Source: Prostheceraeus crozeri
Lineage: Eukaryota; Platyhelminthes; Polycladida; Euryleptidae
Length of the DNA stretch: 64,000 bases
Reading direction: 5' to 3'
Assembly: GCA_907163375.1 (NCBI GenBank)
Contig: CAJQUW010003011.1
Span: 52,166-116,165 of the forward strand
Below are positions 6,094-37,438 of this stretch, in pieces. A program made the translations under genes and the position numbers. The stretch's first letter is position 1. Each line of letters opens with the position of its first letter. The notes beneath the pieces were generated by a model. It ran no database searches, was not told the DNA's origin, and was given only the letters and a program-made list of their open reading frames with translations.

Positions 6094-6150
6094 GTTGACT
6101 GTGAATAATGACTTTGAAATGTTTTCTAATTCTTAAGTATCAACAAGCAA

Positions 6151-6224: not shown

Positions 6225-6229
6225 CTGTC

Positions 6230-6330
6230 TTTGAGACGCATAAGTGAACTGTTGTCTAGCGAATTCTGTATTTGAGGCGTACAAGTGAACTGCTCTCTAG
6301 TGAATTCCAAATTTGAGTGAAGTCTCTATC
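6230..6330 (+). repeat. 41-bp tandem repeat in the polymerase 5' leader
   Basis: TTTGAG starts copies at 6230, 6271 and 6312. The first two also share AAGTGAACTG and CTAG(C/T)GAATTC, and the third is partial. It lies between the putative transcription start and the initiator ATG. Confidence 0.65.
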
Positions 6331-6367
6331 TTGTTGAAGTATCAAGCTTAAACATAATTTCGTTCAA

Positions 6368-9300
6368 ATGGTAAGTTGAAAATTTCTTCACTCATCTCCC
6401 TCAAACGTGTGGCTAATAGCATCTTCCTCAATTTCAGGCATCAACTTCATCACCAACGCCCTCCCTTCTCGAGGAAAGTTTAGAGTTATTGAGTCAAGGT
6501 AGGTTGTAACAATACACTGAGACTTGAACAGAGATGATAGAATGATTTCTCTTTCAGGTGATACCAGTCTCATCTCGAGCGAGTCGGATAACAACAGCGA
6601 CTCCATGTCAACATTGTCGCGGGAATGCAACGATCGGGAATGTGCTGACTGTGGACACATCTTCACGAGGAAGCGGGATCTCACCCGACACATCAAGCGA
6701 GGTGTTTGTCGACCTAAGCCGGCATCAAACTCCGAAGGTGGGGATGATTCTGTTAACGTCGTCTCCTTTTCTTGCGACTTGTGCGCTCAGTCTTTCGAGA
6801 CACGTTTTGAACTATCTTCGCACAGACTTCAACATACACACAGTGACGATAGTTATACTAACAGCACCTCCTCTATCCGACTCACTGAAGTGTCCATAAA
6901 TAATTTAGTGAGGAACTACCAGATGGACTCCTCAGAAACCATTGCTAACTTTGAGGAATGGTTTCATCAAAATTCATCATTGATAGAAGCGCTCTTCAAC
7001 AATTTAGACAATTTTAGGATGAAGGCGCTCAACTATCTTAAAATAAAATATGTAAAAATCGACCACCATACTGGTCAAATAGTAGAGAGGTTGGAGTTTC
7101 ACATACCCTCCTCTCCTGCAACCGAAGTTGTAGACTATGAGTCTTGGATAAATTTTCATATCCAAGGATTAAAATTAAACATAGATAAATTTAACGAGCG
7201 CGATAGCGGTCTCGTTTTTGATGGTATTGAGTCCGCCTTATTTAAAATCACTTTATTAGAAAACTACTCTGGACGAGGCTCCTTTAAACTTCCGAAAAAT
7301 TTAAGAAATAAAGCAGCAGTCATTTCTGTAGATTGCGAATCGCAATGTTTTAAGTATGCCGTCCTCTCCATTCTCCACTATAATGATGTACAGAATAGCC
7401 GATACCGTAAGAGTAAGTATCAACAGTGGGAGAATGAATTAAAGTTTGATGACTGCAATAGTGAAGATATGAAAATTAAAGATATAGAAAAATTTGAAAA
7501 ATTGAACAACATCAAAATAGTTCTCCATGTTTGGGAAAAGGGATTGAAGGGTGTCCGCTACAACTCGCGTTCGAGTTGTTATGAGCACGTTGTCAACCTT
7601 TTGTTAGTAAGACAGGATGATAGTGAGGAATGGCACTACTGCGGCATTCCCAAAATTTCTCGCTTATACCACCACTTAAGAAATTCTACCTCATCAGAGA
7701 TTTATTACTGTGACAGATGCATTCGGAACTTTAGGAGTAAAAACAAATTTGAAACTCATTATGAGTGGTGTAAGCGAGGTAAACTGCAAATGGAACGCAT
7801 GCCCAAAGATAAGGAGTTTTCATATAGAGAGAATGGCGATGAACTAAGTCCTCTTCGTGTCATCTATGCTGACATCGAATGTTATATCGATGATAACATC
7901 CATCGACCAGCAGCCATTTCCTGCTATGAAGTATGGCATGACCATTTCCAAAATAGAAAAAATAAAATGCACATCTGGCAAGGTGAGGATTGTATTTACC
8001 AATTCCTACAATTCCTCGAACAGGCTGTAAAATTTCAACAAAAGTATGATGGTGAACTCTATCGCAGATCATTGCATATGACAGCAGATGATCAAGCAAA
8101 ATTTGATAGCTGCAACGTTTGCCCCAAATGTAGGAAAACATTTGATGATGATAAGATTAAGAAAGTGCGCGACCATGATCACATCACTGGTAAATTTAGA
8201 AACGCACTATGTTCAAAATGCAATTTTTCGCTGAGGATGAAACGGCGTACATTACCCGTCATTTTCCATAATTTCAAGGGCTACGACAGCCATATGATAA
8301 TAAAAGGAGGTTTAGGTCAAATGAAAGAGTGGAAGCTTGATGTAATAGCACAAACGAGAGAGAAGTTTATGGCCATGACAGCAAAAGTGCCTGTCGATAA
8401 AACTAAAGAAAATAAGACGGTCTATTTTGATATAAAATTTTTAGATTCCTACCAATTTATGACTGCATCACTGGCCTCTCTCGTACAAAATCTGAAGTCT
8501 CTTCCACTAACACAAAATCTTAAGAAACAATATCCAAATCTAACCGATGAAGTCATCACACGGAAAGGAGTCTTTCCATATGCATATTTTGATGCAATTA
8601 GTAAACTCGGCGAGACTTCTCTTCCGCCCATAGATAAATTTAAAAATGATTTGAGCGGTGCAGAATGTAAGACCGAAGATTATGATCATGCACAAGATGC
8701 ATGGATAAAATTTGACTGCCATACATTTGGTGAATATATGATTGCCTACCTTAAGTTAGATGTATTTTTGCTGGCTGATGTATTTCAGGAGTTTCGACGA
8801 GTGGCATTAGAAGAAGATAAGTTAGATCCCGTCCACTTTGTCAGTCTACCAGCCATGTCATTTAAGTCTGCTTTTAAAATGACTGGTGAGACCATTCATC
8901 TCTTACAAGATCCAGAGATGTATAATTTATTTGAGCGAGGAATTCGCGGTGGTCTCACATTTGTAAATAAACATAGGTTAAAATCTGAAACAGTAGGTAA
9001 TGATCATACCCATCTTAAGTATTATGACCAAAATAATTTGTATGGTAGTTCATTATCCAAACCACTCCCTCACTCTGAGTTTAGCTGGTTAGATGATAGT
9101 GAAATTCAGCATCTCTCCAACCCTTCTAACATACTAGCAATTCCAGATGAAGGTGATTGGGGATATTATTTTGAGATAGATCTAATCTATCCAAATAATA
9201 TTAAACATAAAACCGTAGATTTTCCACTCGCACCCGAATCAGGTGAAGTGACCAAAGATATGTTTTCCGACTTTATGAAACAATTTCATAAAGATTTAGA

Positions 9301-10375
9301 ATCATGCGGTCAACCCGACTATAAGCCTTGTCGCAAACTTTTACTCACCCAGTATGATAAGGAAAACTATCTAGTCCACTTTAGCATCTTAAAATTTTAT
9401 TTAGAAATGGGTATGATTTTAAAAAGAGTTCACCGCATTATTAAATTTAGACAGAAAGCCTTCCTCAAACCATATATTGATAGCAACAGCCAGAAACGTG
9501 CACTAGCCCAAAATAATTTTGAAAAAGATTTTTATAAGTATAAGAATAATAGTCTATTTGGTAAGACGATGGAGGATGTTAGAAAACGTGTAAACTATAA
9601 ACTAGTCAATGATGTTACAAAATTTAAGAAATTGGTCTCATCACCTCTATTCATCGATAGAGACATTATCGATGAGGACCTTGTAGGTGTTAAAATGATA
9701 AAATCTGAAGTTGAGTTGTGCAAGCCCATCTATATTGGTCAAGCTGTACTAGATTACTCTAAGCTTGAAATGTACCAACTCTTTTATAAAATACTAAAAC
9801 CATGTCCTCTCGTAAAAGGGGTTCGTTTGTTGGGTGGTGATACAGATAGTTTCTTCTTAGGTATTACCACTCAAAAAGATTTAAATTTCAATGAAGTAGG
9901 AAAATCTTTAGAAAGATATTTTGATACATCAAATTATCCTACTGATCACCCACTCTACTCCATCAAAAATAAGGCAAAACTTGGCTGCTTTAAGGATGAG
10001 ACAGCAGGGAAGGAAATAGATGAAATGATTCTCCTCCGTCCAAAAATGTACAGTATGAAATTAAAGGATAGTGACGATAGTATTAAGCGTGCTAAAGGCA
10101 TATCAAGATCATTGGTCTCTAACATGAAACATAAAAATTTCAGGAAAGCCTATAGAAATAAAAATATAACGTTTGTCAATATGACAATCTTAAAATCTAA
10201 GTCGCATGAGATCAAAACTCATACTTTTAGGAAACGGGCGCTTTCAGCATGGGAGGATAAGAGGTGCTGGTTAGAACACAACATATCTCTTCCACATGGA
10301 CATCCTGACACAAACATACCACCACCCAAAAGAATTAAACTCACACTACCACATTCAGGAGACGTCTTAGCATAA
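6368..10375 (+). CDS. Protein-primed DNA polymerase B (three exons)
   Basis: Replicates the element's linear DNA from a protein-primed end. Exon 1 is just ATG (6368-6370), directly followed by GTAAGT. Exon 2 is 6438-6498. Exon 3 starts at 6558. The spliced frame is open throughout and gives 1293 residues. Two C2H2 zinc fingers lie near residues 44-65 and 82-103. A conserved 'DCESQCFKYAVL' pre-exonuclease region follows. Then come ExoI 'YADIEC' (~459), an endonuclease VII-like zinc site 'DHDHITG' (~560), ExoII 'NFKGYD' (~592), ExoIII 'YLKLD' (~752), PolA 'DQNNLYG' (~844), PolB 'KNNSLFGK' (~1016) and PolC 'DTDS' (~1115). All catalytic motifs look intact. It has the CCAAT/TATA promoter class. 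AATAAA at 10660-10665 may end the transcript, beyond the 3' end of the convergent neighbour. Confidence 0.95.
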
Positions 10376-10680
10376 TCATCCTTAACTTAGTATTTTGATG
10401 TTGATTTCTGTAGATAAACATTGTTGTTTTATGTATCGCATGAGATTGTTTTTTCCTTGTGAATATGTGTCCACATCTGTACATTCCCCATGTGATGACT
10501 TTTCCACTGAAAGACATTTTTCCTATCCCTGTATATTTCCACCCTTCACGAAGTAAAAAGACTTTTTGTATATAGCAATGTTTATTGAAGTGCGCTCATG
10601 TATATATTTTCAGTGGATGTTGTATAAAGTCTATTGCTTCACATTCATGTACATATTTCAATAAATGTTGTATAAAGACT
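10376..10680. other. 3' intergenic between convergent genes
   Basis: No gene. AATAAA at 10660-10665 (plus) and its complement at 10581-10586 (minus signal for the next gene) cross over, so the two transcripts probably overlap at their 3' ends. A 'CATGTA(T/C)AT(A/T)TTTCA...TGTTGTATAAAG' phrase occurs twice (10599 and 10648). Confidence 0.6.
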
Positions 10681-12231
10681 TCACTTTGTTTTCCGAAACA
10701 CTAAAGTTACGAGGGATTTAGTATCTTTCACATGGATGCACTCTTGTAAACCATTGGTAATTTTGATAGCAATAGAGGGTATAGTTTGTTTGACGACGGG
10801 ATGATAGAAAATAGATTCAAACATCTTCTCGACTATTCCATATGAAGCGTCTTTATCATGAATGAAATCACGTAAAATGTATTCTTTTTTCTCACCAACA
10901 GAAATAGGTAGAATCAAATCACTTTGAATGTAAAGGTGCTGTTCATGTTTATCAAGTGTCATTGGTGTTTCTATACCAATCGTATGCGCAGCAGCAAACA
11001 CAGTTTGTAGCATTGAAAAACCAAAGAGTTTTTTCAAATTTTTACTCAATTGACATTGAATGTCATCACCCAGTTTCAGAACAACGCGTTGATTTTCAAT
11101 TGAAAACGAAATGTGGTGTGTCTTTACATCATATTTACTTTTCATCACATGCTTCAACTTCTGTTGTATATAAGGATTTACTACATGAATGAAGCTTTCA
11201 ACTGTATGATATAGACGCGGCATTATATTGATAGCAACTTTAGATTCTTCATAAGACTGGTAAATTTTCTTGATGCGATCGCCATAGATGTCCACCCACC
11301 ATTCATCATTAACTGAATCAGCTTTAGTGTGATATTCATGAGAAGCATACACCACACCGCTTCCAATAATAGGTGTATAATGTCTTACAAAATGACGCAA
11401 GGTTGGAGAGAAATAAACTGTAAGTTTGTCATTATATTTCTGAATAACCAACTTATTTTTGTTCGCCATAATTTTCTCTCCATACTTCTTACCCACAGTC
11501 TCATTCCATCGTTTTACTAACTCAATAAGCGATAAAGGTTGAACACCACGCTTTTTCAAAATGATGCGTTCTTCGCATTCTACAACATCTTCATCAAATA
11601 TTTTAAATCTATAATGAAATTTGTTGATTCGATTTGAATAAACTTTTTTAACATTTGCAGTAGCAATTGATGTTAGATGTAGTCCATGACCAAAACCAAG
11701 ATGTGGATAGAATTCATTATCCAACCTCAGCGTAAGACCTTTAGTAAAAGAATGAAAGCGAAGGAACTGTCTCCCACTCCAATGATAGATAGTAAACTCA
11801 TAAGCTTTCTGATTTTTATTCTTCATGATGGAAGTATTACCACTATTGAATGCCTTAATAATTTTCTCATTCCCAAATGGTTCATAAGAATCTGATTTTA
11901 TCTGAATCCATTCATAGTTCCACTTTCCATCTGATGTTAAATTGTATGGGAACTGAAATGCATTATTCATCGTTATTCCATCATGGGTGCGAGGAGTCAA
12001 TATCATTTCTTCCAAATCATTCACATTCTGAATATTGCTATCATAGCAAATACTAGAAACGCCAACCTCCCATTCACCTTCTAAATGCAGTGGGCGATTT
12101 AATTCTACTCGATAGTCTGATGGTTTATTTTTGGGAAATTTATTCATAGAAGCATTACTGGGTAAGTAGATTAGAAACGAGTCCTTATTTTCACTTTCCA
12201 TATTATTCACATTGGAAAAATATATTAGCAT
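10681..12231 (-). CDS. Polinton-conserved protein with WEVGVSSIxY signature (paralogue 1)
   Basis: 516 residues from the first ATG; a second ATG at 12201 (MESEN...) is equally plausible. Near the N-terminus is the pattern 'LPSNASMNKFP...P(L)...LEGEWEVGVSSICY', shared with the next gene ('LLSNAATKRF...LNGNWEVGVTQLVY'). The two are therefore tandem paralogues with the same layout throughout. Proteins with this start are common in animal Polintons next to capsid genes. I take them as virion components (fibre/penton or scaffold-like), but the role is unproven. TGCAAA lies at 12240-12235 just upstream. Confidence 0.75.
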   Translation of the reverse strand: MLIYFSNVNNMESENKDSFLIYLPSNASMNKFPKNKPSDYRVELNRPLHLEGEWEVGVSSICYDSNIQNVNDLEEMILTPRTHDGITMNNAFQFPYNLTSDGKWNYEWIQIKSDSYEPFGNEKIIKAFNSGNTSIMKNKNQKAYEFTIYHWSGRQFLRFHSFTKGLTLRLDNEFYPHLGFGHGLHLTSIATANVKKVYSNRINKFHYRFKIFDEDVVECEERIILKKRGVQPLSLIELVKRWNETVGKKYGEKIMANKNKLVIQKYNDKLTVYFSPTLRHFVRHYTPIIGSGVVYASHEYHTKADSVNDEWWVDIYGDRIKKIYQSYEESKVAINIMPRLYHTVESFIHVVNPYIQQKLKHVMKSKYDVKTHHISFSIENQRVVLKLGDDIQCQLSKNLKKLFGFSMLQTVFAAAHTIGIETPMTLDKHEQHLYIQSDLILPISVGEKKEYILRDFIHDKDASYGIVEKMFESIFYHPVVKQTIPSIAIKITNGLQECIHVKDTKSLVTLVFRKTK

Positions 12232-12240
12232 ACGTTTGCA

Positions 12241-13638
12241 TTAACTCTTCATTCGGAAATGGAGTGTGATACTTGTCACAGCATCTTTATGAAAAGGAAT
12301 CAACGCACCAGCATCGTCATAAATGGCAATATCAATTTGTGGGATGTAGTTTGATTTCAGCTTTGTATAATGCACTTTCTTGAAAGTATGCTCAGATAAA
12401 ATACTGCAGCTTTTTGGCTGGTATGGTATCATTGCTAGCAATGGAGCTTCAACATCTCCCACACGTACATCTTCACCAATATTGGAATATATCTGAAAAT
12501 AGTTAATACGACGCGATAGCGACATGTCTGCGCTAGCTTTGGTTACAGTACCACTTTTAAAGATATTTTGATCAAAACCCAAAATGTCCATTAGAGTTTT
12601 ATCCATAATTAGTTCAATACCTTTTCCACTTATAGTGAGAGACAAAGTACCTTCTTTTTCAGAAAATGAAATATGTTGCTCATTAATCACTTCATTTAAA
12701 TAATCTACAACCAATTTAACCGAAGTAATAATGCGAGGCATCAACACTCTTGTTTCATGTAAGATACCACCTAAAGGCTCTACACACTTTCTGTATAAAG
12801 ATACGGTCCATTCTGTATCAAATTGATTTGACCTTTCACATGGTAAATGTTGCATATCAGATTTTCCATGAACAGCTGCAGAACGATGTCGTAAGAACTG
12901 ATGAAAATCTTTTGAACAAACTAATACTAGATCATCATCATTTAATTTACTTATTGCAATATGATTAGATGATTTGATATAAGTCAATGTTGCCACTTGT
13001 TTACCATCAACTCGAAGGAGATAATTAAATTTCTTCAATAATGTTTCAGGAGTCATGTTTGTCTTTCTTGGCTTAATCACAATCTTCTTCACCAACGTCT
13101 TCTCATTTCTTGGAATAAGATCTACATAATAAGCTTCCTCTCGATATATTAACTGTTTATGACCACTTATGTGGTAATTAACGTTAAAATTATCATAGCT
13201 TGTTAAGGCGCTAGCGAGGTAACCTAAATCATTTCTTAAACTTGGACTTAAACCAACAATCCAATCTTTCTCAACTACATGATGTACATAAGTATAATCA
13301 TCATTGTGCGGAGTAAATTGGACAATATGTTTACACGCTTTATTCAAGAAATCATATATAAACTTTTTACATGATAAGAGATCTTTCTTTGGCCACTGTG
13401 GAATGTATACTCGGCACCCCTTTTCACATTGATAAGCAGCTGTACGCCTCATATTAATAGTCATCACCTCATGATCAAAAGTATAGACACAGTTGCTATA
13501 AACAAGTTGAGTGACACCCACTTCCCAATTTCCATTTAGCTGTTGTGCATGATCAATGGGAGTAGAAAAGAGTGCGGCTCGATTACTAGTAAATCTCTTT
13601 GTAGCCGCATTGCTAAGCAAAATATGATAAAACGACAT
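12241..13638 (-). CDS. Polinton-conserved protein with WEVGVTQLxY signature (paralogue 2)
   Basis: 465 residues starting at the MSFYH ATG (13638); the open frame extends slightly further but from a non-ATG codon. It is similar in length and plan to the 10681-12231 product: an N-terminal Asn/Pro segment, the NWEVG motif, and a mid-protein 'V.PRI' region before the C-terminal domain. It diverges from the PC4-like gene starting at 13674, with only ~35 bp between the ATGs, so the two share one compact promoter containing TGCAAA (minus strand 13666-13661). Probable virion protein; function inferred from context. Confidence 0.75.
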   Translation of the reverse strand: MSFYHILLSNAATKRFTSNRAALFSTPIDHAQQLNGNWEVGVTQLVYSNCVYTFDHEVMTINMRRTAAYQCEKGCRVYIPQWPKKDLLSCKKFIYDFLNKACKHIVQFTPHNDDYTYVHHVVEKDWIVGLSPSLRNDLGYLASALTSYDNFNVNYHISGHKQLIYREEAYYVDLIPRNEKTLVKKIVIKPRKTNMTPETLLKKFNYLLRVDGKQVATLTYIKSSNHIAISKLNDDDLVLVCSKDFHQFLRHRSAAVHGKSDMQHLPCERSNQFDTEWTVSLYRKCVEPLGGILHETRVLMPRIITSVKLVVDYLNEVINEQHISFSEKEGTLSLTISGKGIELIMDKTLMDILGFDQNIFKSGTVTKASADMSLSRRINYFQIYSNIGEDVRVGDVEAPLLAMIPYQPKSCSILSEHTFKKVHYTKLKSNYIPQIDIAIYDDAGALIPFHKDAVTSITLHFRMKS

Positions 13639-13673
13639 TTTTATATTGCTAATCTGCAACTTTGCATAACATC

Positions 13674-14030
13674 ATGAAGACTTGGATTTTGGACTCTCTA
13701 CAATATATCAGAGTTGATCGTGATGGAAACGTACATTTCAAAAATTCTCATGGTCATACATCAAGAGGAATTACATTAACATGGCGACAATTTGTCAACC
13801 TCAATGATATCATGAGGGATTTGGAATATTTTGAAACATTAAGATTCATCTCCTTGGGTGATCAAGTTTGGCTTCAACATTACAGAAATGAAATTCAAAT
13901 CTGCCATTCTCATTCCGCAAACTGTTTCTCATTTCGCAAATACAATTGGGAGAAGTATAGAAGATACATACATCGCTCCATCATGACATTTATTCGTCGT
14001 GAGTTCATCGCCCTACTATGCAAATCTTAA
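13674..14030 (+). CDS. PC4-like small protein (copy 1)
   Basis: 118 residues. The N-terminal part reads 'LDSLQYIRVDRDGNVHFKN' followed by 'GITLTWRQFVNLNDIMRDLEYF'. This resembles the ssDNA-binding unit of the transcription coactivator PC4 ('...F.D..G....KGISL....W..L...'). A second half with 'LGDQVWLQ' and a basic helical end follows. It is clearly paralogous to the first ~110 residues of the next gene. The ATG at 13674 follows the shared TGCAAA/TTTGCA region. The PC4 relation is my motif-level inference and needs a profile or structure test. Confidence 0.6.
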   Translation: MKTWILDSLQYIRVDRDGNVHFKNSHGHTSRGITLTWRQFVNLNDIMRDLEYFETLRFISLGDQVWLQHYRNEIQICHSHSANCFSFRKYNWEKYRRYIHRSIMTFIRREFIALLCKS

Positions 14031-14052
14031 TCAGACATGACTATCACGCACC

Positions 14053-14703
14053 ATGAGTTGGAAATTAGATTCCCTACAACGTATTGAAACGGATCATGAT
14101 CGAAACGTCTATTTCAAAGATTCAACTGGAAATGTGAGAAGAGAGTTTGCTTTATCTTATCGTCATTTTCAATCTCTACATCATATCATGAAGGACTTGA
14201 AATACTTCTATATGAAAAGACATTCACGTATTGGAAATCGCATCTGGCTGCGCGTCAACAATCGGCGAATTCAACTCTATCATTCCCAACTTCATACTAA
14301 CTTCACATTTCATCAAGGTAGTTGGGAAAAGTATAAAAGGAAGGTACATCGCTCAATTTACTCATTCTTTCATCATGAAGCGTCATCGCTACACCATCGT
14401 CAACATTCTCCGTCGCTTCAGACTCTACACCAAAATCGATCTCACAACATTACACCAACACCTTCCAAACAGCAAGTATTACCCGGGCCGACCTCAAATG
14501 TTAGTGGTGAAGATGAACAATTCACGGAATCTTCAACTCTTCCCAAATGGGACTGTACAGATTCTCGGCGCCCTTTCTCATTCATCGGCGCAGTCAATGC
14601 GCTTAGAGCTACAAAGACTACTACGTCGGATATGGAAGAGGGAGAGGTGTGTGATGTCGAATCTGACTGTGGACAATATGGTGATCTCTACTCAATTGAG
14701 TGA
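14053..14703 (+). CDS. PC4-like protein (copy 2) with extension overlapping the TBP-like gene
   Basis: 216 residues. The first ~110 match copy 1 ('LDSLQRIETDHDRNVYFKD', 'FALSYRHFQSLHHIMKDLKYF', 'IGNRIWLR', 'GSWEKYKRKVHRS'). The remaining ~100 are Ser/Thr/Pro/His-rich and low in structure, and are encoded on bases that also encode the TBP-like protein in another frame. Either this is a true overlapping gene pair, or the tail is a by-product of the TBP-like frame and the real protein ends differently. ATGCAAAT (14018-14025) lies 28 bp upstream of its ATG, on the coding strand. Confidence 0.55.
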   Translation: MSWKLDSLQRIETDHDRNVYFKDSTGNVRREFALSYRHFQSLHHIMKDLKYFYMKRHSRIGNRIWLRVNNRRIQLYHSQLHTNFTFHQGSWEKYKRKVHRSIYSFFHHEASSLHHRQHSPSLQTLHQNRSHNITPTPSKQQVLPGPTSNVSGEDEQFTESSTLPKWDCTDSRRPFSFIGAVNALRATKTTTSDMEEGEVCDVESDCGQYGDLYSIE

Positions 14704-14920
14704 CAGTCTATCATTTTTGAAGATTCGTACCAGCAGTTACAGTTTGTGTTATGAACCCGAACTTTTTCCTGCAGCTCTCATTAGTTGTTGGTTACCTGTA
14801 CATGTGGCAATCTTTCATAATAGTAAAGTGATCATTACTGGACTAAAATCTCATGTACAAGCAAATGTGATCCTAGACTATCTCATTGAGTATGTACGTA
14901 CCCAGCGGATTGTAAAATAA
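14375..14920 (+). CDS. TATA-binding-protein-like protein (two TBP repeats)
   Basis: 181 residues, the length of the TBP core. Repeat 1 (~13-90): 'IDLTTLHQHLPNSKYYPGRP' then 'LQLFPNGTVQILGA', matching TBP's 'LDLKTIA...NAEYNP(K)R' and 'IFSSGKMVCTGA'. Repeat 2 (~95-180): 'YEPELFPAAL' and 'VAIFHNSKVIITGLKS', matching 'YEPELFPGLIY' and 'LIFVSGKVVLTGAK'. Of TBP's four DNA-kinking phenylalanines, three are kept (LFPNG, ELFPA, AIFHN); the one in 'RFAAVIM' is replaced. It overlaps the preceding gene's tail in another frame. Its stop codon lies inside AATAAA (14916-14921). Likely role: promoter recognition, possibly switching the cell's RNA polymerase II to late element promoters. Confidence 0.85.
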   Translation: MKRHRYTIVNILRRFRLYTKIDLTTLHQHLPNSKYYPGRPQMLVVKMNNSRNLQLFPNGTVQILGALSHSSAQSMRLELQRLLRRIWKRERCVMSNLTVDNMVISTQLSDSLSFLKIRTSSYSLCYEPELFPAALISCWLPVHVAIFHNSKVIITGLKSHVQANVILDYLIEYVRTQRIVK

Positions 14921-14946
14921 AAAACAATTTTTCCAACATGATGTTT

Positions 14947-15408
14947 TTATTTCAAATCATGATAGAACTTACAAATCATTTTTTCATTAGAGGATGGATT
15001 ACATGAAAAGTTTTGAATAATAGATGCAAATCGAGATACATGTAAACGTTTTAAGATGAAGTACAGTACAAAAGCACCACACGTTGATGAAAGTGGATGT
15101 TGTAGTATGCGTTCATTTCGCTGATATTGACGCGTATGTTTTCTCAACCACTGCTGTGTTGGTATATTTGGAGGTTGAGCAAGAGAGTCAAATAGTTCAC
15201 CACGTCGGTCTTCTCCAATAAAGATCGCTTTCCAATGCTCACCGCCTAAATTCTGCGAATGAGTGTTTAGCACAATAAAGATGGGATAGTGATTTACTGC
15301 AGGTGGTAAGGTATCGAGTGAATAGACATTATCGAAAGCTTTCAACGTCGCTTCGTCTGCATTACGCTGCACTTTAGTCTTAATATCGTCAGCAGTCAAC
15401 CAACTCAT
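14947..15408 (-). CDS. Adenain-like cysteine protease (PRO)
   Basis: 153 residues. The adenovirus-protease catalytic set is visible in order: His58 in 'GGEHWK', Asp74 in 'ELFDSL', Gln103 in 'ILQHP' (oxyanion) and Cys110 in 'SSTCGAF'. Polinton proteases of this family process capsid-associated proteins at Gly-Gly/Gly-x sites, and the products at 16689-17144 and 19792-20142 carry such GG motifs. The start overlaps the capsid gene's stop (TAATG), so translation may be coupled. The TAA stop is part of an AATAAA signal (minus strand, 14951-14946). Looks intact. Confidence 0.93.
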   Translation of the reverse strand: MSWLTADDIKTKVQRNADEATLKAFDNVYSLDTLPPAVNHYPIFIVLNTHSQNLGGEHWKAIFIGEDRRGELFDSLAQPPNIPTQQWLRKHTRQYQRNERILQHPLSSTCGAFVLYFILKRLHVSRFASIIQNFSCNPSSNEKMICKFYHDLK

Positions 15409-16686
15409 TAACGATTATACTGAAGAATCACGTCACGATACTTTGTAATTTCAATATTTGAATCGAAGACTGCATAAATTAATACATTGATCGTCTCAGG
15501 TAGTGTTCTTTTGAACGTCAAATCCAAACGAATATTATGAGGCACGTTCGCTTGACGATAGGGTGCACTAATATCGCTGTCAGCAGTCAAATCAAATGCA
15601 TAAATAGTATATCCACTCTTAAACTCTTTCATAGTCAGTCCGTTGGTGTCATCCGTATTGTAAAAGCCAAAGACATCCATAAAATCAACATAACTGCGCA
15701 TAAATTGATCCGAAGCAAAATCTGGTTTGTAGGGTGGACCAGGATGACTCACACCATTTACACGTAAAGCAATTTCACTTAACTGATTGTGTTTAAAATT
15801 GAAAGGATTCTTCTTTATATTACCATTAAATGCATCATTTTCAACCATTGCCACCATGAGGAGCTTCGGTGCTTCCGATGGAAAGAGGCCATCTTTCATG
15901 AAACTCTTTTGATCTTTCGGAATTGTAAAGGTGAGAAGCTTTGTATGCTGAACGGGGTAAATGGCATTTTGGCGGTTAAGGCCTTCAGCATGCCCTCTAA
16001 TGACACTTGGATTCGGTACTACTCGACGAATGTAAAGTGCAATATCTTCCACATGAATTCTAAAATTGTCAACTTTAGCAAATGCATTCAGCGCAAATTC
16101 AGGCTTATTCAATGTCAGCTTGAGTCGCATGCTGGTATTACACAGTAAAAACTTTGACTGTCTAAAGAAGTCTAAATTCAGCGGACCATATAGCTGACAT
16201 ACTTTACTATCTTTAATCATAGCAGATCGCTTTACAAAGCCACTGTTTGTTTCAACATCAAATTTTCCTGTTTCATCTCTATACCATCCCATGGCTTCCA
16301 TATGACTTTTTTTGTGCTGCTGGATGAAACTGTGATACATGATTGAAATATGATTTATAGGGATAATCGCTTTGACCACCTTCCACCTGCTGCTCTCCAA
16401 TCGTTAGAGAAACATCGCGAAGTAATGTAGTCAATGGTAAATTGTTCAGTCCAACTTTATGTGTATCGTCAATAGCAGTTCCATCTGCTTGCTGAATTCT
16501 AAACCTCAAATCAAGCATCGCATAACTCAAATCTATGTAGTCATCACTACCACCAGGAATAACAAATTCAATGGGACCAGCATTCTCAGCTGTTCGAGGA
16601 TGATAATCTACAATACTTGAACTAAGAATATCTGTCTGTATGGCTTGTTGATCGAACAAACAAAAACCGGAAGTTTTACACTCCAT
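15408..16686 (-). pseudogene. Major capsid protein, double jelly-roll type, broken by one frameshift
   Basis: The upstream frame (16686 to 16279) has the typical Polinton hexon start: 'FDQQAIQTDIL', 'PIEFVIPGG..DYIDLS', 'NLPLTTLLRDVSLTIG' and 'YPYKSYF'. The downstream frame (ending at 15408) continues with 'RDETGKFD' and the rest of both jelly rolls. The frames part at an A7 run (T7 on the plus strand, 16307-16313). Continuation requires a +1 shift, so one extra A in the run explains it. Everything else looks intact, so this is either a very recent mutation, a base-calling error, or slippage used by the element. ATG is 2 bp after the previous gene's stop. Confidence 0.88.
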
Positions 16687-16688
16687 GA

Positions 16689-17144
16689 TTAGAAGTTATA
16701 GCAGCGTCGTCGTTTAGCGCCTGATGAATGATTAGAGCCTCTGCGACGTTTGCGTGAATGCCTTTTGACTGAAGATCGCACCTTACCAGCTCCGCGATGT
16801 TTCCTCCTTCCTTTATTCATTCGTTTAGGTGATTTCTTTCCTTGAGTAACACCAGCAAAGGTCTGCTTCAATGTTTTTAAACCGCGTTCCTTCCCACGAT
16901 TCAACAAACTGCTCTTAAAACTTCTACCTCTGGAAAGATCACTAGCAACATCACCAGCAAAGCCAACGGCATTACTTAAAACATTTCGTTTTAAAGATCT
17001 ACCGACATTGGATATGAGAGGTGCTACAACAGATTTCAGTGCACCAAGTATGCTACCTCCACGTTGGCGGCGAGCGCCGATGTAAATTTGTCCTCCGCCA
17101 CTTACATAGGAGGGTCGTGAATAAAATGAGGCAGTTGGATTCAT
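16689..17144 (-). CDS. Basic minor virion/core protein with Gly-Gly site
   Basis: 151 residues. After a short N-terminus comes 'RRQRGGSILGALKSV', a GG site followed by an amphipathic helix, as in adenovirus pVI/pX-like precursors and Polinton minor capsid proteins. Another helical part follows, then a C-terminal third rich in Lys/Arg ('KRHSRKRRRG') suited to DNA binding. It lies directly before the capsid gene (2-bp gap). TGCAAA occurs 32 bp upstream of the ATG (17181-17176, coding strand). Role as DNA-condensing or membrane-active virion protein is inferred from family and composition. Confidence 0.8.
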   Translation of the reverse strand: MNPTASFYSRPSYVSGGGQIYIGARRQRGGSILGALKSVVAPLISNVGRSLKRNVLSNAVGFAGDVASDLSRGRSFKSSLLNRGKERGLKTLKQTFAGVTQGKKSPKRMNKGRRKHRGAGKVRSSVKRHSRKRRRGSNHSSGAKRRRCYNF

Positions 17145-17185
17145 AGCTCAAACCCTAAACATTGTTAGTTACAACTTTGCATGAA

Positions 17186-18406
17186 TCACTGTCGATCACT
17201 TAGATGAAAGATGTCGGCACGACGCATCCAAGAGTTCATACTTGAAGGATAACCAGTCCATTTAACAAGACACCATTCTTCACCTTGCCATTTTTTACAT
17301 CGAATGATTTTCTCTACCAAATATGTTTCACTTTCAGTGACTACCTCAATCTCATCGCGGTAAAAGCTACCCTCAATTTCTTCATTATCGTAATCTTTCA
17401 ACTTGTAGGTGGTCGGAGAGTCTTTTTGATTAATCCTTGATACTGTAAATACCTCCTCTGTCCAATTCGGAAGGTACCCTTTAGCAAAAACACTTTTCAC
17501 TTTTGAGATACGAACTTTATCGCCAATTTTCACATCACTTTTCACATGAGTGCGTTTACGTTGGAATGATTCGCGCACTTTATCTACATTGTCAGCATTT
17601 ACATCTACTGGTCTGAATCCAATAGAACGATGGATAGAGTGATTGTAGGCATGGAGTGTATCTTGTAGAACCTTTGTCCAATTTTGTGTCAAGTTGGCAG
17701 TAAAATGTCGCCACAAGCGATTTTTTAATGTGCGATTAAAACGTTCAACGAGTGCAGCTTTATAAGCACTCTTTACACTAAACAACTCAATGTCATGCCT
17801 CTCAAATAATCTTCGCACATGCTGATTTTCAAACTCTTTTCCTTGATCACTCTGAATTCTTTTTGGAATCCGACCTTCTCGAAAAATTGTTTGGAATGCT
17901 TTTGCTACTCCTTTCCCTTCTTTAGTTTTTAAAGGTTGAGCCCACGCATAACGCGAGAAAATATCAATGACGGTTAAAATAAAATTATTGCCCGAGTTAT
18001 GTTTTGAAATGGAGGCGACATCGCACAAATCTGCTTGCCGCTGTTCATCGATGTCATGAACAATATAATGGCGGGTGCGGTACTTCTTTTTCGCTTGTTT
18101 GTGGAGTGTATAGGTAGCCTGACCCTTTAACCATCGTTTCACTTGTGATTGTGGAAGACCACTCGCTTTTGATAATTTCTTGATAGATGCAAATCCTGCC
18201 GGATGTTTTACATCATAATAGATTGACTTCAAACGTTCAGTCGATGACGACTGACTCTTTTTCCTCCTTCTCATCTTTTTGTTTTCTTGCCTTTCTACAT
18301 TTACAACAACTACAGCATTTAGCTTTAGCGGTTTTGCGATCGTGTTCACATTGCTTAGGGGTTTCATTATGAGAGCTGGCGCAGCAAGTGCAAGTGACAA
18401 CGACAT
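17186..18406 (-). CDS. Retroviral-type integrase with C-terminal chromodomain
   Basis: Catalyses integration of the linear element. Using the 406-residue frame, homology starts around residue 57 ('LKSIYYDVKHPAGF'). The DDE triad is Asp126 ('QADLCD'), Asp187 ('SDQGKEF') and Glu221 ('VERFNR'). A small SH3-like region ('KIGDKVRISK') follows, then a chromodomain at ~361-400 with 'YLVEKI', 'CLVKWTGYP' and 'NSW', keeping aromatic residues of the methyl-lysine cage. The first ~44 residues overlap a cysteine-rich frame and look non-native; Met45 (18274) is a likelier start. A chromodomain suggests targeting to particular chromatin. Intact. Confidence 0.92.
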   Translation of the reverse strand: MSLSLALAAPALIMKPLSNVNTIAKPLKLNAVVVVNVERQENKKMRRRKKSQSSSTERLKSIYYDVKHPAGFASIKKLSKASGLPQSQVKRWLKGQATYTLHKQAKKKYRTRHYIVHDIDEQRQADLCDVASISKHNSGNNFILTVIDIFSRYAWAQPLKTKEGKGVAKAFQTIFREGRIPKRIQSDQGKEFENQHVRRLFERHDIELFSVKSAYKAALVERFNRTLKNRLWRHFTANLTQNWTKVLQDTLHAYNHSIHRSIGFRPVDVNADNVDKVRESFQRKRTHVKSDVKIGDKVRISKVKSVFAKGYLPNWTEEVFTVSRINQKDSPTTYKLKDYDNEEIEGSFYRDEIEVVTESETYLVEKIIRCKKWQGEEWCLVKWTGYPSSMNSWMRRADIFHLSDRQ

Positions 18407-18452
18407 TCACCTCTGGCGGCTCATTACATGGCAAGCAACACATCTGCTTCAT
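18237..18452 (-). CDS. Cysteine-rich small ORF overlapping integrase start
   Basis: 71 residues with about 14 cysteines, many in pairs ('CCLPC', 'CTCCAS', 'CCSCCKC'), then a charged Lys/Glu tail. The ATG is one base after the stop of the upstream gene, the same tight spacing as other genes of this strand, which argues that it is used. It overlaps the presumed integrase N-terminus in another frame. It could be a separate metal-binding protein or supply a zinc-binding N-terminus joined to integrase by an unseen event. No family recognised. Confidence 0.45.
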   Translation of the reverse strand: MKQMCCLPCNEPPEVNVVVTCTCCASSHNETPKQCEHDRKTAKAKCCSCCKCRKARKQKDEKEEKESVVID

Positions 18453-18453
18453 A

Positions 18454-19146
18454 TTAATAGTCTGAGAACATGTATTTTCTGGGAGGAGCTGTTTTACGTT
18501 TTCCTTTTACTAGTTTTAGTGGTGATGTAGATCTACGTCGAGTTCTTCCTCTTGTTTGCTTAGTGAGTGTGGGAGGGGATGTAGCAGGTGACGACTTAAA
18601 CCAATTTGTTGGCATTTTCATCGTCTGAAGCATTGGAGCAGTAGCTACTGTTGAATCAAGTTCTTTCAATGTCTCATTATTCAAAGCAAATTTTGGTACA
18701 TTATGCTTTTTCAATAGTTTAAGAAAGTATGACCAACCAGGTGGAACATAGCCCTGACGGCGCTTTCTACGTATCACATACTGAATCAAGTCTTCATAAC
18801 GTGAAGCATCATTCACTTTATTTTCATCTGTAATAATTTCTCCTCTATCATTTACATTGAGATGGGGTTCAATACTATTGAAAAGAGATATGGCATGTGC
18901 GCGAGATGCTAAAGGTGTAGCAGTCGATACAGAGTCACGCATCTTATTCTTCAAGTTTTTTAATTGCTCAACAGTTTCCGATTGTAATAATACAGCACGA
19001 TGTGGATCATTGATGTGAACATTTTGCTGATAATCTATTTCTTTCCTATACATTTGATTTGCAAGAGGTTGCTTTACTTGCTGCATGGCAGTCAATTGTA
19101 CATATTCATCCTGAGGAATAACAATCATGCGAGAATAAGAACTCAT
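18454..19146 (-). CDS. Conserved Polinton protein of unknown function (R-S/T-rich tail)
   Basis: 230 residues. Recognisable Polinton-family features: 'MSSYSRMIVIPQDEYVQL' at the start, 'NVNDRGEIITDE', then 'YEDLIQYVIRRKRR' and 'PPGWSYFLKLLKKHNVPK'. The C-terminal ~50 residues are basic and Ser/Thr-rich. It lies immediately after the packaging ATPase with an ATGA start/stop overlap. Families in this position are usually virion-associated. Role unknown. Confidence 0.75.
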   Translation of the reverse strand: MSSYSRMIVIPQDEYVQLTAMQQVKQPLANQMYRKEIDYQQNVHINDPHRAVLLQSETVEQLKNLKNKMRDSVSTATPLASRAHAISLFNSIEPHLNVNDRGEIITDENKVNDASRYEDLIQYVIRRKRRQGYVPPGWSYFLKLLKKHNVPKFALNNETLKELDSTVATAPMLQTMKMPTNWFKSSPATSPPTLTKQTRGRTRRRSTSPLKLVKGKRKTAPPRKYMFSDY

Positions 19147-19760
19147 AGTTTGTAGATAATCATGGGAGTTTTCAAAATATCACTTCGAAATCTAAATTCT
19201 TCCGGACACTCTTGCGTAAAGTCAATGAATAAGTAACCGTATGGTTTTTCAGTAGCTGCTTGAAAAATTTCAATTAAGGCTTTTGATCCTCTGGGTGCAA
19301 CTTGTCGCGCTAAAATTTCAAATTGACTTTTATCTCGCGGATTCTTGAAAATAGCATAATAGTGTGTATTCAGGTTTCGTGTACGAGCTTCTTTTCCATC
19401 AGGAAACAAATTTTGTGTGATATAGATGATAAAGCACCTTTTATGGTGTGCTGCGCGAGTGAACATATCTGTAACATCTTTTGAATTCTTACTTTCTTTT
19501 AATAAATCATCCAATACAACAACATCATTAGACTGAAGTTTATCCACTGGAATAATTCCTTCATGTCGAATAAAGTTGCGACTTTGCAATTCCTGAAACA
19601 GCGACGGTTGATAAATACCATAACACCAAATCACTCGATTGATAGGTTCCTTAAACAACTCCCTTCTTTTATCCAATAAATTCAGCGTGAAAACAGTTTT
19701 ACCTGCATGAGATGGACCTGATACAGTCAGAACTTTATCACATTGAAGTCTGAAATCCAT
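19143..19760 (-). CDS. DNA-packaging ATPase (FtsK/HerA type)
   Basis: 205 residues. Walker A 'GPSHAGKT' (15-22), Walker B 'VVVLDD' (80-85) and a sensor 'TQN' (115-117) are in the order of the A32/FtsK-HerA genome-packaging ATPases of Polintons. It would pump DNA into the capsid. Length is normal for Polintons. The stop overlaps the next gene (ATGA). TGCAAA lies 23 bp upstream of the ATG (19788-19783). Intact. Confidence 0.93.
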   Translation of the reverse strand: MDFRLQCDKVLTVSGPSHAGKTVFTLNLLDKRRELFKEPINRVIWCYGIYQPSLFQELQSRNFIRHEGIIPVDKLQSNDVVVLDDLLKESKNSKDVTDMFTRAAHHKRCFIIYITQNLFPDGKEARTRNLNTHYYAIFKNPRDKSQFEILARQVAPRGSKALIEIFQAATEKPYGYLFIDFTQECPEEFRFRSDILKTPMIIYKL

Positions 19761-19791
19761 TTTATTACTTTGAGACTCAACATTTGCATAA

Positions 19792-20142
19792 TTAACGTCT
19801 AGAGCCGAAGATATTACCCAATAGGTTGCCCACGGCAGGAGCTATCATTGGAAGTATTGCTGAAAGGAAACCGCCCTTTTGTGTTAGAGTTTCCCTCTTT
19901 CTTTGAAGGGTGACTTTAGGATTGGAGATGAAACGCAATTTCGTAGCATATCGCTTAAGTAACTTTCGTTGTTTTGGCGCTAATTTCTTCGTCCTCAACT
20001 TCCTCACATGAGAAATAATTTCACAAATGAATTTATCGTTAGCATGTCGTATAGCATTGTATCGCTGATTTGCTTTCATTCGTCGGAGAGCTTGAATGGC
20101 TGAAGAAAACTTTGAAGACTTTTGACTTTTACGTTTCGCCAT
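19792..20142 (-). CDS. Small basic virion-type protein with QKGG site and hydrophobic end
   Basis: 116 residues. The N-terminal 80 are basic and helical ('MAKRKSQKSSKF', 'LAPKQRKLLKRYATKL'). A 'QKGGFLSAILPMIAPAVGNLLGNIFG' segment follows: a putative protease site (GG) before a membrane-active helix. This plan is standard for a conserved small Polinton protein likened to adenovirus pVI. TGCAAA lies 40 bp upstream of the ATG (20187-20182). Role inferred: capsid-interior protein that disrupts membranes during entry. Confidence 0.78.
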   Translation of the reverse strand: MAKRKSQKSSKFSSAIQALRRMKANQRYNAIRHANDKFICEIISHVRKLRTKKLAPKQRKLLKRYATKLRFISNPKVTLQRKRETLTQKGGFLSAILPMIAPAVGNLLGNIFGSRR

Positions 20143-20193
20143 TTTCCGTGTTAGTCTTTGCTAAAACCTATCTTTACCACATTTGCATAGGTA

Positions 20194-20517
20194 CTAACTA
20201 TTGCGACATAAGTGACACTCGAAATGAGCAATATCACAGTGGTTACATTGGCAAAGTTGAATGCAATTACGTATGAAACAGCGTTGACAAAAAGCATGCT
20301 TACATCTCTTGAAGATGCGCTTTTCATTTCCATCCTTTCGCTTACATACATCGCAACACATAGTTTCACCGTTACTGATGTCTATAGCAAGTCTTTTTGA
20401 AGATATGAATTTGCTAGCCTTTTCTAAATAATAGACGCATGTACAGAAGGAATATACTTCGAGAGTGAGCAGACATAGCTCGAAAACCAGTTGTGCTACA
20501 ATCAAGTACCACTGCAT
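20194..20517 (-). CDS. Membrane-anchored RING-like zinc-finger protein
   Basis: 107 residues from the first ATG (20517), two bases after the stop of the upstream gene. Residues ~4-30 are hydrophobic and probably cross the membrane. The second half has a RING-like pattern, 'CCDVCKRK', 'RCKHAFCQRC', then 'CQCNHC' and 'CHLC', i.e. C-x2-C, C-x-H-x3-C-x2-C and later C-x2-C pairs. Such proteins are often E3 ubiquitin ligases, for example viral MARCH-type factors. Loop lengths differ from classic RING, so ligase activity is a hypothesis. Confidence 0.65.
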   Translation of the reverse strand: MQWYLIVAQLVFELCLLTLEVYSFCTCVYYLEKASKFISSKRLAIDISNGETMCCDVCKRKDGNEKRIFKRCKHAFCQRCFIRNCIQLCQCNHCDIAHFECHLCRNS

Positions 20518-20519
20518 TT

Positions 20520-20930
20520 TCAATTTTTCTTTATGGAAATTTGAATGTGAATATCTGAAATCGCTTCAATCACTAGACTGCTACCATGATGGTTAAATGC
20601 GTTAAGACGTTCAGCAATTTTTATTATATGTCTTTTAAAAAATTCTTCGGGGTGATCTACCACTTCCATTGAATAAGAAGCAAAATGGAAAGAGCGACTT
20701 TCCACCTCTTCCTTTCCAAAATGACTAAACTTAATTTTCGCAACTAATCGCGCCATGATAATGCTATCAGAGAATGTATTCATTAACTCTAGAAATAGAG
20801 TGCTAGCATCATCGACCACTGCTTCGATGTCGGTCTCATCTTTATGAAAATTTATCACATAATCTTGAACAGCTCCTTTTAAACTTTGCCTATGAAAATG
20901 TAATGTTCCGCAGTCGTTTGAGAAAGACAT
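20520..20930 (-). CDS. Stand-alone copy of the polymerase N-terminal domain
   Basis: 136 residues. From ~60 onward it parallels residues ~170-250 of the element's own polymerase: 'AKIKFSHFG' vs 'LKIKYVKID', 'EVVDHPEEFFKRHI' vs 'EVVDYESWINFHI', and 'SSLVIEAISDIHIQIS' vs 'SGLVFDGIESALFKIT'. This region precedes the exonuclease in Polinton polymerases. Either it was duplicated from the polymerase, or the polymerase acquired it. It might bind the polymerase or terminal protein. No catalytic residues seen. Confidence 0.65.
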   Translation of the reverse strand: MSFSNDCGTLHFHRQSLKGAVQDYVINFHKDETDIEAVVDDASTLFLELMNTFSDSIIMARLVAKIKFSHFGKEEVESRSFHFASYSMEVVDHPEEFFKRHIIKIAERLNAFNHHGSSLVIEAISDIHIQISIKKN

Positions 20931-21017
20931 GATCGCCCTTTATCTAACCCATCCATTGCATGAAAACAACAACTCTTCTCATAGTAACATTTATTGAATA
21001 ACGGTAACAAGCATGCA

Positions 21018-21548
21018 TTATAAATCAATGGTTTGAAAGAGATAAAATAGATACAGCTGGTAACTATCATACAGCGAGCAATGATAACCATACAGGACTT
21101 TGGCAGTGTTGAGGTAAGGAGGAAAGAAGCATTGGTTATGAACGTAGCTACTACAACGAATAGACAAAATAGGAACACACAAATCCTTAAAACGTTTCGT
21201 GACTTCATGATAATGTTGATTCACTCTACTATCCCAAGGTGGGAGCAAAATATCATCAATGATTAGATTGGGAAATACTTTCCTCTCCTTACCAGGATTA
21301 TTACAAAAGATGCGTATAACATTGAAAGCAGCTAACCATCGTTTAAAGTCAATAAGAAGAGCACTCTCACAAGAAAAGCCATAGTCTTGCAAATATTTCA
21401 GATTAAGTCCATGAATGTGTTTTCTCGCCCATTGATCAACATTGGGATCGCAGTTGGCATGTTGATGATAGACACTAACAATCTGATATGTCCACTTGTT
21501 CATAGCAATAGCACTGAGCTCCTGTACAGGTTCACCCTCACAATCCAT
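21018..21548 (-). CDS. Putative DEDD-type 3'-5' exonuclease
   Basis: 176 residues. Begins 'MDCEGEPVQELSAI', an acidic D-x-E pair followed by the strand typical of RNase T/DnaQ-fold exonucleases. Next come 'WARKHIHGLN', a helical part with 'DFKRWLAAFN', then 'IFCNNPGKE' and 'LIIDDILLPPW', which can supply the third acidic site. The order fits DEDD exonucleases, but the last acidic motif is not certain. It could process replication ends or RNA. The overlapping hydrophobic frame at 20879-21208 is taken as a shadow. Confidence 0.55.
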   Translation of the reverse strand: MDCEGEPVQELSAIAMNKWTYQIVSVYHQHANCDPNVDQWARKHIHGLNLKYLQDYGFSCESALLIDFKRWLAAFNVIRIFCNNPGKERKVFPNLIIDDILLPPWDSRVNQHYHEVTKRFKDLCVPILSIRCSSYVHNQCFFPPYLNTAKVLYGYHCSLYDSYQLYLFYLFQTIDL

Positions 21549-21599
21549 AAAAATGATGATAGAAGCCTAAAACGGAAATTACACATCTAAGGAAACGTT

Positions 21600-21800
21600 C
21601 TATAACATATTACAAAATGAAGAATTACATCGATGCTTTTCACGACAAAATACACAAATGATATGATGGCAACGAAGAAGTAAAATGTATCTAATAAGAC
21701 CACGTCTACGACACTCAAAGCACATAAGCGAATTGTTATAGGGTAGAGTTAGGAAAGGACTAGTAATTCTCCTTCTTTGATTTGCGTTTTGAGGCAGCAT
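21600..21800 (-). CDS. Second small RING-like Cys/His protein
   Basis: 66 residues from the first ATG (21800). Core: 'CFEC...LLRCHHIICVFC...HRCNSSFC', a C-x2-C, C-x-H-x2-C-x2-C, C-x4-C arrangement close to a RING or degenerate RING. No membrane segment. It overlaps the 3' end of the ssDNA-binding gene by 41 bases in another frame. With the membrane RING at 20194-20517, this element carries two candidate ubiquitin-pathway factors. Identity below family level unknown. Confidence 0.5.
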   Translation of the reverse strand: MLPQNANQRRRITSPFLTLPYNNSLMCFECRRRGLIRYILLLRCHHIICVFCREKHRCNSSFCNML

Positions 21801-22534
21801 TCTCCTCCGACTTGCGCTTCGTACCACTGCTGTTAAGGATTTGATCAATTATGTCGTCCACGTTGGGCGGTTTTGGAATATATAGGATGGATTCCATATG
21901 CATGGAGAGAGAGGCTATTTTATTATCCTTGTGCCGACCATAATATCGCCCATTCACTTTGAAAAGGATATCCCAAGTACCTTCTCCGAGCTCGTCGCAT
22001 GTGATGGGTATTGATTGATCTCCATCCTTTTTATAATAACTACACCAATGTGATACCGGTAGGCAAATGTGATTACCACCCCAAATCGTTCTATAGGGAG
22101 TATCCTTGGCATCTCTCGCCTTCCACTCTTGAGCAAGAGGAGTAGGAATGTCCATATTTAATGTGACGTACTCCTCAATGATATCAAGTTGGTGGCGAAT
22201 GTACGGACTCACGGGGATCAGTATGTAGTCCCCATACTGATTGTGCATTATCTTGACATCCGTGGAAGGGAGCATTCCCGTTTGGAGTACTACGCTATGA
22301 TCGTCATAACGCAAGACTTGTTTAAATTTACGCTGTAGCGGTGTACGATTATGTACCTTGGTTGTTTCTTCCACTGGCCTCAGTTGTAGATGATCTGACC
22401 GCAGCGAACCTTGTAACGTTTGACCGCCATTTTGTCCTACTAGTGCAGCAGATGGAGTAGATGCCTGAAAATGAAAAAGATTGTATTAAGTTTACGTTCA
22501 AGGGAGGAGAGGGAGGGAAGTAGCGACTTACCAT
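21760..22534 (-). CDS. Putative ssDNA-binding protein (two exons)
   Basis: Exon 1 is only the ATG (22534-22532), directly followed by GTAAGT. The intron is 22531-22465 with a TTTTTCATTTTCAG acceptor, and exon 2 runs 22464-21760. The product is 235 residues and starts MAST..., like the polymerase. Features: 'QYGDYILIPVSPYI', 'GGNHICLPVSHWCSYY', 'WDILFKVNGRYYGRHKDNK', then a Lys-rich tail ('KRKSEENAASKRKSKKE'). This resembles OB-fold-like proteins seen in Polintons, hence the replication-ssDNA role, but that is an inference. Promoter: minus-strand CCAAT at 22680 and 22663 and TATAAATA at 22640. Confidence 0.6.
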
Positions 22535-22632
22535 TTTAGTTGGATAATAGAACAGGGAACTAGAGAGAGAAAATGTGCGTCCGTCACTCGTATGATTCAA
22601 CGATGGAATGATTCTCACTGTGGAAGGCTCGC

Positions 22633-22680
22633 TATTTATAAAGAAATGCTTGATTCTCATTGGATGATGATCCTCATTGG
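22633..22680 (-). promoter_or_regulatory. Promoter of the ssDNA-binding gene: two CCAAT boxes and TATA
   Basis: On the minus strand: CCAAT at 22680-22676 and 22663-22659 (17 bp apart), then TATAAATA at 22640-22633. An ATCATT-like start lies about 26 bp further on. The box spacing equals that in front of the polymerase gene. Confidence 0.65.
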
Positions 22681-22689
22681 ACAATAACA

Positions 22690-23309
22690 TCAAGCTGATT
22701 CCAAATCTGGCCTCCGTTTACCCATCCGAGCCTTCGTTTTGGCGCTACAGCCCAAAACGTCCCAAATTCTAACTCTGTCGTTTTTCGCCAATGTCCCAAA
22801 ATCTTAAATGGCGTCTCACATCTAAACGAAGGCAGATATGAACAAGCCGATTCTTTCACTGAATTTGTCTCACTCTTAGCTTTCAAACGAGCTATGGCAC
22901 GACAAAATCCGTCCACTGGAAGTCATGATTGAAGCTAGCTGTCCAGAGGGGGGGGAGGTCAGCGAAAATTTTTCTCTCCGATGGCGTTCAAATTCACCCT
23001 ACCGATGCAGAATGTCACGCTGAATCCGAATCCGGCCTCCGTTTTCTCATCCGATGCTTCGTTTGGGCGCTACACACCAAAACGTCCCAAATTCTAACTC
23101 TGTCGTTTTTTCGAAAAATGTTGAAAATTTTTTCTCGCCGATTGCCTTGAAACTCACCATACAGATAGAGAATTTCACGCTGATTCCAAATCTGAAATCC
23201 GTTTTCCAATCCGATGCTTCGTTTTGAAGCTAGAGCCCAAAACGTCCCAAATTCTAACTCTGTCGTTTTTCGCCAATGTCCCAAAATCTTAAATGGCGTC
23301 TCACATCTC
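22690..23309. repeat. Subterminal repeats of Polinton A, right side
   Basis: A phrase containing 'AATCTGGCCTCCGTTT', 'AAAACGTCCCAAATTCTAAC', 'CACTGAATTTGTCTCACTC' and a poly-G tract after 'CCAGA' recurs two to three times, the copies partly matching the inner end of the terminal repeat. No gene is credible here; open frames in the repeat are fortuitous. Confidence 0.75.
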
Positions 23310-37432: not shown

Positions 37433-37438
37433 AAATTA

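Follow-up and report, generated by a model that had tools for sequence, protein, structure and literature searches.

Organization of the TBP-bearing Polinton

The window analysed here, a 64,000-nucleotide stretch of Prostheceraeus crozeri DNA, contains a complete Polinton that carries a gene for a TATA-binding protein (TBP) homologue, immediately preceded by two tandem paralogous genes. The element and its genes are as follows.

2734..23773 (no strand): complete Polinton, 21,040 bp, bounded by terminal inverted repeats (TIRs) and a 6-bp repeat
2734..3196 (+): left TIR, starting with AGTAGTAAG (blastn)
6524..10375 (+): PolB, 1283 aa, assigned by likeness to a second PolB in the window
10681..12231 (-): 516-aa gene, presumably of virion type
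12241..13659 (-): 472-aa gene, presumably of the same general kind as the 516-aa gene
13674..14030 (+): PUR1, 118 aa, predicted (bbbba)x2 PUR-type fold
14053..14376 (+): PUR2, paralog of PUR1 (44% identical), from the ORF and sequence comparison
14375..14920 (+): TBP homologue, 181 aa, predicted pI 10.35 (Pfam, PDB, predicted fold)
14947..15408 (-): PRO, adenain/Ulp1-like protease (Peptidase_C48, below cut-off)
15408..16686 (-): putative major capsid protein
16689..17144 (-): 151-aa basic protein (ORF listing), presumably minor-capsid-like
17186..18406 (-): INT, retrovirus-type integrase with chromodomain (Pfam rve 1.2e-9, Chromo 1.3e-5, above cut-off)
19143..19760 (-): packaging-type ATPase (weak AAA_14 and Pox_A32 matches)
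19792..20142 (-): 116-aa protein, like adenovirus core protein X (Adeno_PX E 0.0029, below cut-off)
23310..23773 (-): right TIR (inverted-repeat and base-level comparison)

The TIRs are 97.6% identical across 465 columns (blastn), and AGGGAT flanks the element on either side as a 6-bp direct repeat (2728-2733 and 23774-23779); the ends were allowed to shift for the direct repeat, a shift of one base was required, and the termini read AGTAGTAAG. Of the features expected of Polintons/Mavericks, long TIRs, a 6-bp target duplication, a retrovirus-type integrase and PolB are present, while the adenain-like protease, A32-like ATPase and double jelly-roll capsid protein are represented by putative candidates only; the element harbouring the TBP gene is a Polinton, in agreement with the preliminary description of this DNA.

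The Pfam scan gave no direct PolB family match for the Polinton's own PolB; it is assigned through its likeness to a PolB of another element in the window (61098-63992; 29% identity, 869 columns, E 2e-87), and this second PolB matches DNA_pol_B_2 (3.4e-13). PRO is C48/C5-like with a sub-threshold match to Peptidase_C48 (E 0.0013, 19.1 bits, cut-off 20.7), and the ATPase has weak A32-like matches only (AAA_14, 0.017; Pox_A32, 0.026). The product of 15408..16686 is what we take, from gene position and general knowledge, to be the major capsid protein. Its gene is split in the Polinton copy into overlapping frames (16279-16686 and 15408-16400). A 307-residue piece has 282 relatives, the best of them 99% identical and uninterrupted, and the uninterrupted relatives are 425 aa long. 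The Polinton copy may be inactive because this frame is interrupted; intact relatives exist. One 425-aa relative (P0070) has no Pfam match, and the profile of the putative capsid family has no match at E ≤ 1 among PDB sequences. Pfam likewise returned no match for the 516-aa protein and nothing above cut-off for the 472-aa and 151-aa proteins, and PHROGs, Rfam and tRNA scans gave nothing useful.

The TBP gene encodes a predicted two-repeat saddle

The ORF at 14375-14920 is confirmed, by family profiles and a predicted model, as a true two-repeat TBP. It matches Pfam PF00352 at E 3.8e-20 (71.9 bits, cut-off 22.9) in two stretches that cover both repeats, and PDB TBPs with a best E of 2.2e-12 by sequence and 1e-24 with the family profile. 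The predicted model has a pLDDT of 95 and the saddle fold of the TBP family; Foldseek found 44 matches in the PDB at E ≤ 0.001, to TBP chains or TBP-containing entries. The preliminary description had read a 181-residue TBP-like product here and had named a predicted structure lacking the TBP saddle, or a match to non-TBP families only, as the outcomes that would speak against it; its coordinates prove exact, and neither outcome arose. The near-verbatim TBP motifs that it had pointed out ('YEPELFP', 'VIITGLK' and 'NSKYYPGRP') are all found in the ORF, and its count of three retained kinking phenylalanines out of four is also borne out, i.e., F56, F131 and F147, equivalent to yeast F116, F190 and F207. 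The fourth (yeast F99) is replaced by Pro40, which leaves the set of four, a typical though not strictly defining TBP trait, incomplete, and this loss could, judging from the sequence, reduce DNA bending. The Giardia TBP also lacks key phenylalanines, according to the text available of PMC12209930.

There are 61 homologues of the Polinton TBP, all with a TBP domain, and their aligned identity to the query ranges from 31 to 77%; the family alignment of query and homologues (n = 62) divides into one group of 48, to which the query belongs, and one of 14. E129, N101, F56 and F147 are present in 62/62 sequences, E127 (one D), F131 and T155 in 61/62 each, and N10 in 50/50 of those that have a residue there. 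The equivalents kept are thus, in yeast numbering, N69, N159, F116, F190, F207, T215, E186 and E188; they comprise the minor-groove asparagines, conserved across the family, and the two TFIIB-contact glutamates of the C-terminal stirrup (E127 and E129). Other positions are specific to the family: Q62 and H143 in 62/62, Q54 in 58/62, and Pro40 in 58 of the 59 having a residue at that site; L64 occurs in 56/62. Among the DNA-facing sites, yeast F99, L114, V122, T124, V203 and L205 are replaced by P, Q, Q, L, H and A, respectively. Compared residue by residue, the family has therefore kept its TFIIB-contacting face and altered its DNA-facing sites.

Against five cellular TBPs, the Polinton protein shows 22-27% identity and three family members 20-28%, while yeast TBP is 93% identical to that of Chaetomium and 80% to that of Encephalitozoon, which argues against a recent capture from the host. 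The family-specific signature, common to 61 relatives at the identities given above, points to long purifying selection.

PUR-like neighbours and the genomic setting of relatives

PUR1 and PUR2 lie in tandem immediately 5' of the TBP gene. Their predicted structures share the PUR/Whirly/PC4 superfamily fold and are likened to PUR-alpha, MRP, Whirly and PC4; the Foldseek matches are weak, and neither protein has a Pfam or PDB sequence match to PUR, Whirly or PC4 families. PC4, the first guess from sequence, was not upheld as the identity of the pair, as a second structural aligner ranked PURA above it. Beyond PUR2 itself its frame continues without a stop as far as 14703 (14377-14703, ~108 codons) and so overlaps the TBP gene, which is read in a different frame; this reflects either real overlapping coding or a lost stop.

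Gene neighbourhood among relatives was judged from contigs of equal size, using the best 120 of the 282 capsid relatives, and four pairings were obtained in total. One joins TBP P0002 and PUR P0065 (1771 bp), for a chance expectation of 0.08 TBP-PUR pairings, and another joins TBP P0010 and capsid P0153 (7106 bp); the latter is weak because 0.62 TBP-capsid pairings are expected by chance (0.10 for contigs >5 kb). The other two connect PUR P0064 and P0067 with capsid P0070 and P0071 (PUR-capsid chance expectation 0.08), and both P0064 and P0070 share 99% identity with their counterparts in the window. Scans of IMG/VR (with the TBP and with the putative capsid alignment) and of GTDB genomes confirmed no relative, and the sole match in the phage collection was an archaeal-virus TBP at 24% identity and E 0.02, from Haloarcula virus HJTV-2 (two records).

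Two putative-capsid relatives, P0071 and P0129, occur in NCBI records (longest contig 11,119 bp), one of which is described as a protein from a Pseudomonadota MAG. These records are probably eukaryotic mobile DNA mis-binned into a bacterial genome.

A candidate upstream box

When 7-mers were counted in gene orientation in the 60 nt 5' of 19 Polinton gene starts, ATGCAAA was the most frequent, at six of the 19; its overlapping neighbours reached 4 and 3, and others 2. The six sites are located 22-39 nt 5' of the following genes, the 516-aa gene being counted from its second Met.

12235..12241 (-): ATGCAAA, 33 nt 5' of the second Met of the 516-aa gene and only 3 nt from its first ATG
13661..13667 (-): ATGCAAA, 22 nt 5' of the 472-aa gene
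14018..14024 (+): ATGCAAA, 28 nt 5' of PUR2 (PUR2-TBP unit)
17176..17182 (-): ATGCAAA, 31 nt 5' of the 151-aa gene (unit of 151-aa protein, putative capsid and PRO)
19783..19789 (-): ATGCAAA, 22 nt 5' of the ATPase gene (unit of ATPase and 230-aa protein)
20182..20188 (-): ATGCAAA, 39 nt 5' of the 116-aa gene

Any 7-mer occurred at least six times in 1 of 2000 random placements and in 1 of 2000 random-ATG draws, and ATGCAAA itself never reached six in either set; the signal is positional, comes from one element and was picked out post hoc. The neighbouring TBP-less element has ATGCAAA at 0/14 ORF starts. Against a functional box stand the low-complexity A/T-rich 7-mers that reach 7/14 starts in the A/T-rich neighbouring element, and the whole-Polinton count of nine ATGCAAA, which is not above that of shuffles (mean 6.2, maximum 15). 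Three of these nine lie outside the six upstream positions, and 13 of the 19 starts, including PolB, INT and the first ATG of TBP, have no ATGCAAA.

A further copy of the motif, TATATGCAAAG, is found at 6196-6202 (+), between the 149-aa gene and PolB, 346 nt before the PolB gene's first ATG. An exon or leader of PolB may lie further 5'.

Proposed role of the Polinton TBP

In our judgement the TBP is probably, though far from certainly, a factor dedicated to the Polinton's own promoters that would employ host TFIIB and Pol II. Redirection of host Pol II is the best-supported interpretation of the sequence data, and is preferred since the glutamate pair contacting TFIIB is kept throughout the family and none of the Polinton's 30 ORFs of at least 100 aa matched an RNA polymerase or TFIIB family. 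The protein would sit on (T)ATGCAAA, roughly at the position of a TATA box, bend the promoter DNA and hand it over to host TFIIB and Pol II. Judged by gene order, the six genes with ATGCAAA would head the putative capsid, protease, ATPase and TBP units and may form a late class, such that the virion genes and the TBP's own unit would be switched on late in the element cycle. The PUR-like proteins are probably single-stranded-DNA binders that would act either as coactivators or as partners in replication. A promoter-switching cassette in the full sense, with two PUR/PC4-like single-stranded-DNA binders and a TBP re-tooled for the G/C-containing (T)ATGCAAA that together direct host TFIIB and Pol II to late virion genes, is a tentative proposal that we would not put as high as an even chance, and the connection between ATGCAAA and the TBP is circumstantial.

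The protein might instead read TATA-like or degenerate A/T-rich DNA, in which case ATGCAAA would be the site of something else, for instance a host POU protein or the PUR-like proteins. In the C-terminal repeat many contacts are canonical, TATAAAA occurs in 2/19 upstream regions, and ATGCAAAT is, as we assume, a POU/octamer site as well; however, the six ATGCAAA sites stand at core-promoter distance from the starts and the family's DNA-facing residues depart from those of canonical TBP, and we regard this alternative as unlikely. Retention of the TFIIB face next to altered DNA-facing sites is also what a decoy or repressor might show, one that occupies host TFIIB or promoters and damps host transcription, but the conservation of both central asparagines and three kinking phenylalanines is unexpected in a pure decoy, and the unit containing the TBP bears the common upstream ATGCAAA; we give such a function little credence. 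Finally, the interrupted putative capsid gene suggests that this Polinton copy may be decaying, and the TBP could then be a chance copy of the host gene with no role in the element, a view made scarcely credible by the low identity to all five cellular TBPs and by the long purifying selection to which the signature in 61 relatives points.

Comparison with known TBPs

Returning to the reading as a dedicated factor that works through host TFIIB and Pol II, the Polinton protein has the two-repeat saddle and the stirrup glutamates (yeast E186 and E188) of eukaryotic and archaeal TBPs, but consists of the core domain only, is borne by a mobile element and is distant in sequence. The likeness to beta- and gamma-herpesviruses noted in the preliminary description holds with respect to logic, and, in the portions available of the cited papers, the parallels are a virus-coded TBP, late genes, a variant box and a polar DNA interface. 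The herpesvirus vTBP reads TATTWAA for late genes (PMC12529657, PMC6541308), a box placed ~30 bp 5' of most known starts (PMC6541308). The route to the polymerase is different: in the passages available, KSHV ORF24 has all four phenylalanines and a polar DNA interface, is missing the TFIIB glutamates (there numbered E184 and E188), and contacts the CTD of Pol II directly via its own N-terminal domain (PMC12529657, PMC7498053). The Polinton TBP has no such N-terminal domain and keeps the glutamate pair, and would therefore act like a vTBP yet reach the polymerase in the opposite manner.

Among viral TBPs, conservation at the first glutamate site is ~40%, and viruses that encode a TBP-like sequence nearly always encode a TFIIB-like one too, according to the text available of Ravarani 2020 (PMC7221094), whereas no TFIIB match is present among the Polinton's ORFs. 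The TBP fold is common to the Polinton protein and eukaryotic DNA viruses, including giant viruses and mirusviruses, and a structure search of BFVD gave 39 matches at E ≤ 0.001, with 6-20% identity in the structural alignments. From the excerpts at hand, TBP is a core gene of mirusviruses, found in 59% of genomes (PMC10132985), the algal virus CpV-BQ1 encodes a TBP and two TFIIBs that are thought to work with host RNA polymerase (PMC12085832), and TATA-binding proteins are mentioned in elements of putative mirusvirus origin (PMC10675990).

No TBP in a Polinton, Maverick or adintovirus is among the literature matches listed. A Polinton TBP is absent from the searched portions of PMC10675990, PMC11071308, PMC11071296, PMC10120064 and PMC4642659, and in those of PMC11464507, PMC12085832, PMC7786948 and PMC6972860 TBP and Polinton terms occur unconnected. 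The text available of PMC7805220 places Polintons close to the origin of many eukaryotic DNA viruses, and the Polinton TBP bears on the origin of the giant-virus and mirusvirus proteins. Viral TBPs as such are known; what appears new within the literature searched, going by sequence, is a TBP in a Polinton, with its residue signature and PUR-like neighbours.

We know of no account of how Polintons express capsid genes inside host chromatin. Given a dedicated TBP and a candidate box, such expression becomes testable, in a smaller model of promoter switching than the herpesviruses offer. The protein also exemplifies a TBP whose DNA face has changed and whose TFIIB face is retained, and the cassette, if true, would be a self-encoded general transcription factor within a transposable element.

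Other elements in the window

A second, AT-rich Polinton-like lineage occupies 27700-45000 and 57543-63992, the copy at 57.5-64 kb being partial and inverted. Its genes encode an integrase with a phospholipase A2-like domain, PolB, an A32-type ATPase and a DJR capsid protein (PF21738, E 3.2e-19), and no TBP was found in the eight ORFs scanned. The ORF at 30619-31893 (-) combines Phospholip_A2_4 (residues 34-115) with a retroviral integrase core (186-263), possibly as a fusion or as merged genes. Just beyond the TBP-bearing Polinton, at 25734-26492 (+), lies a ThiF-family exon (PF00899, E 4.8e-22), presumably UBA5-like, which is probably part of a host gene.
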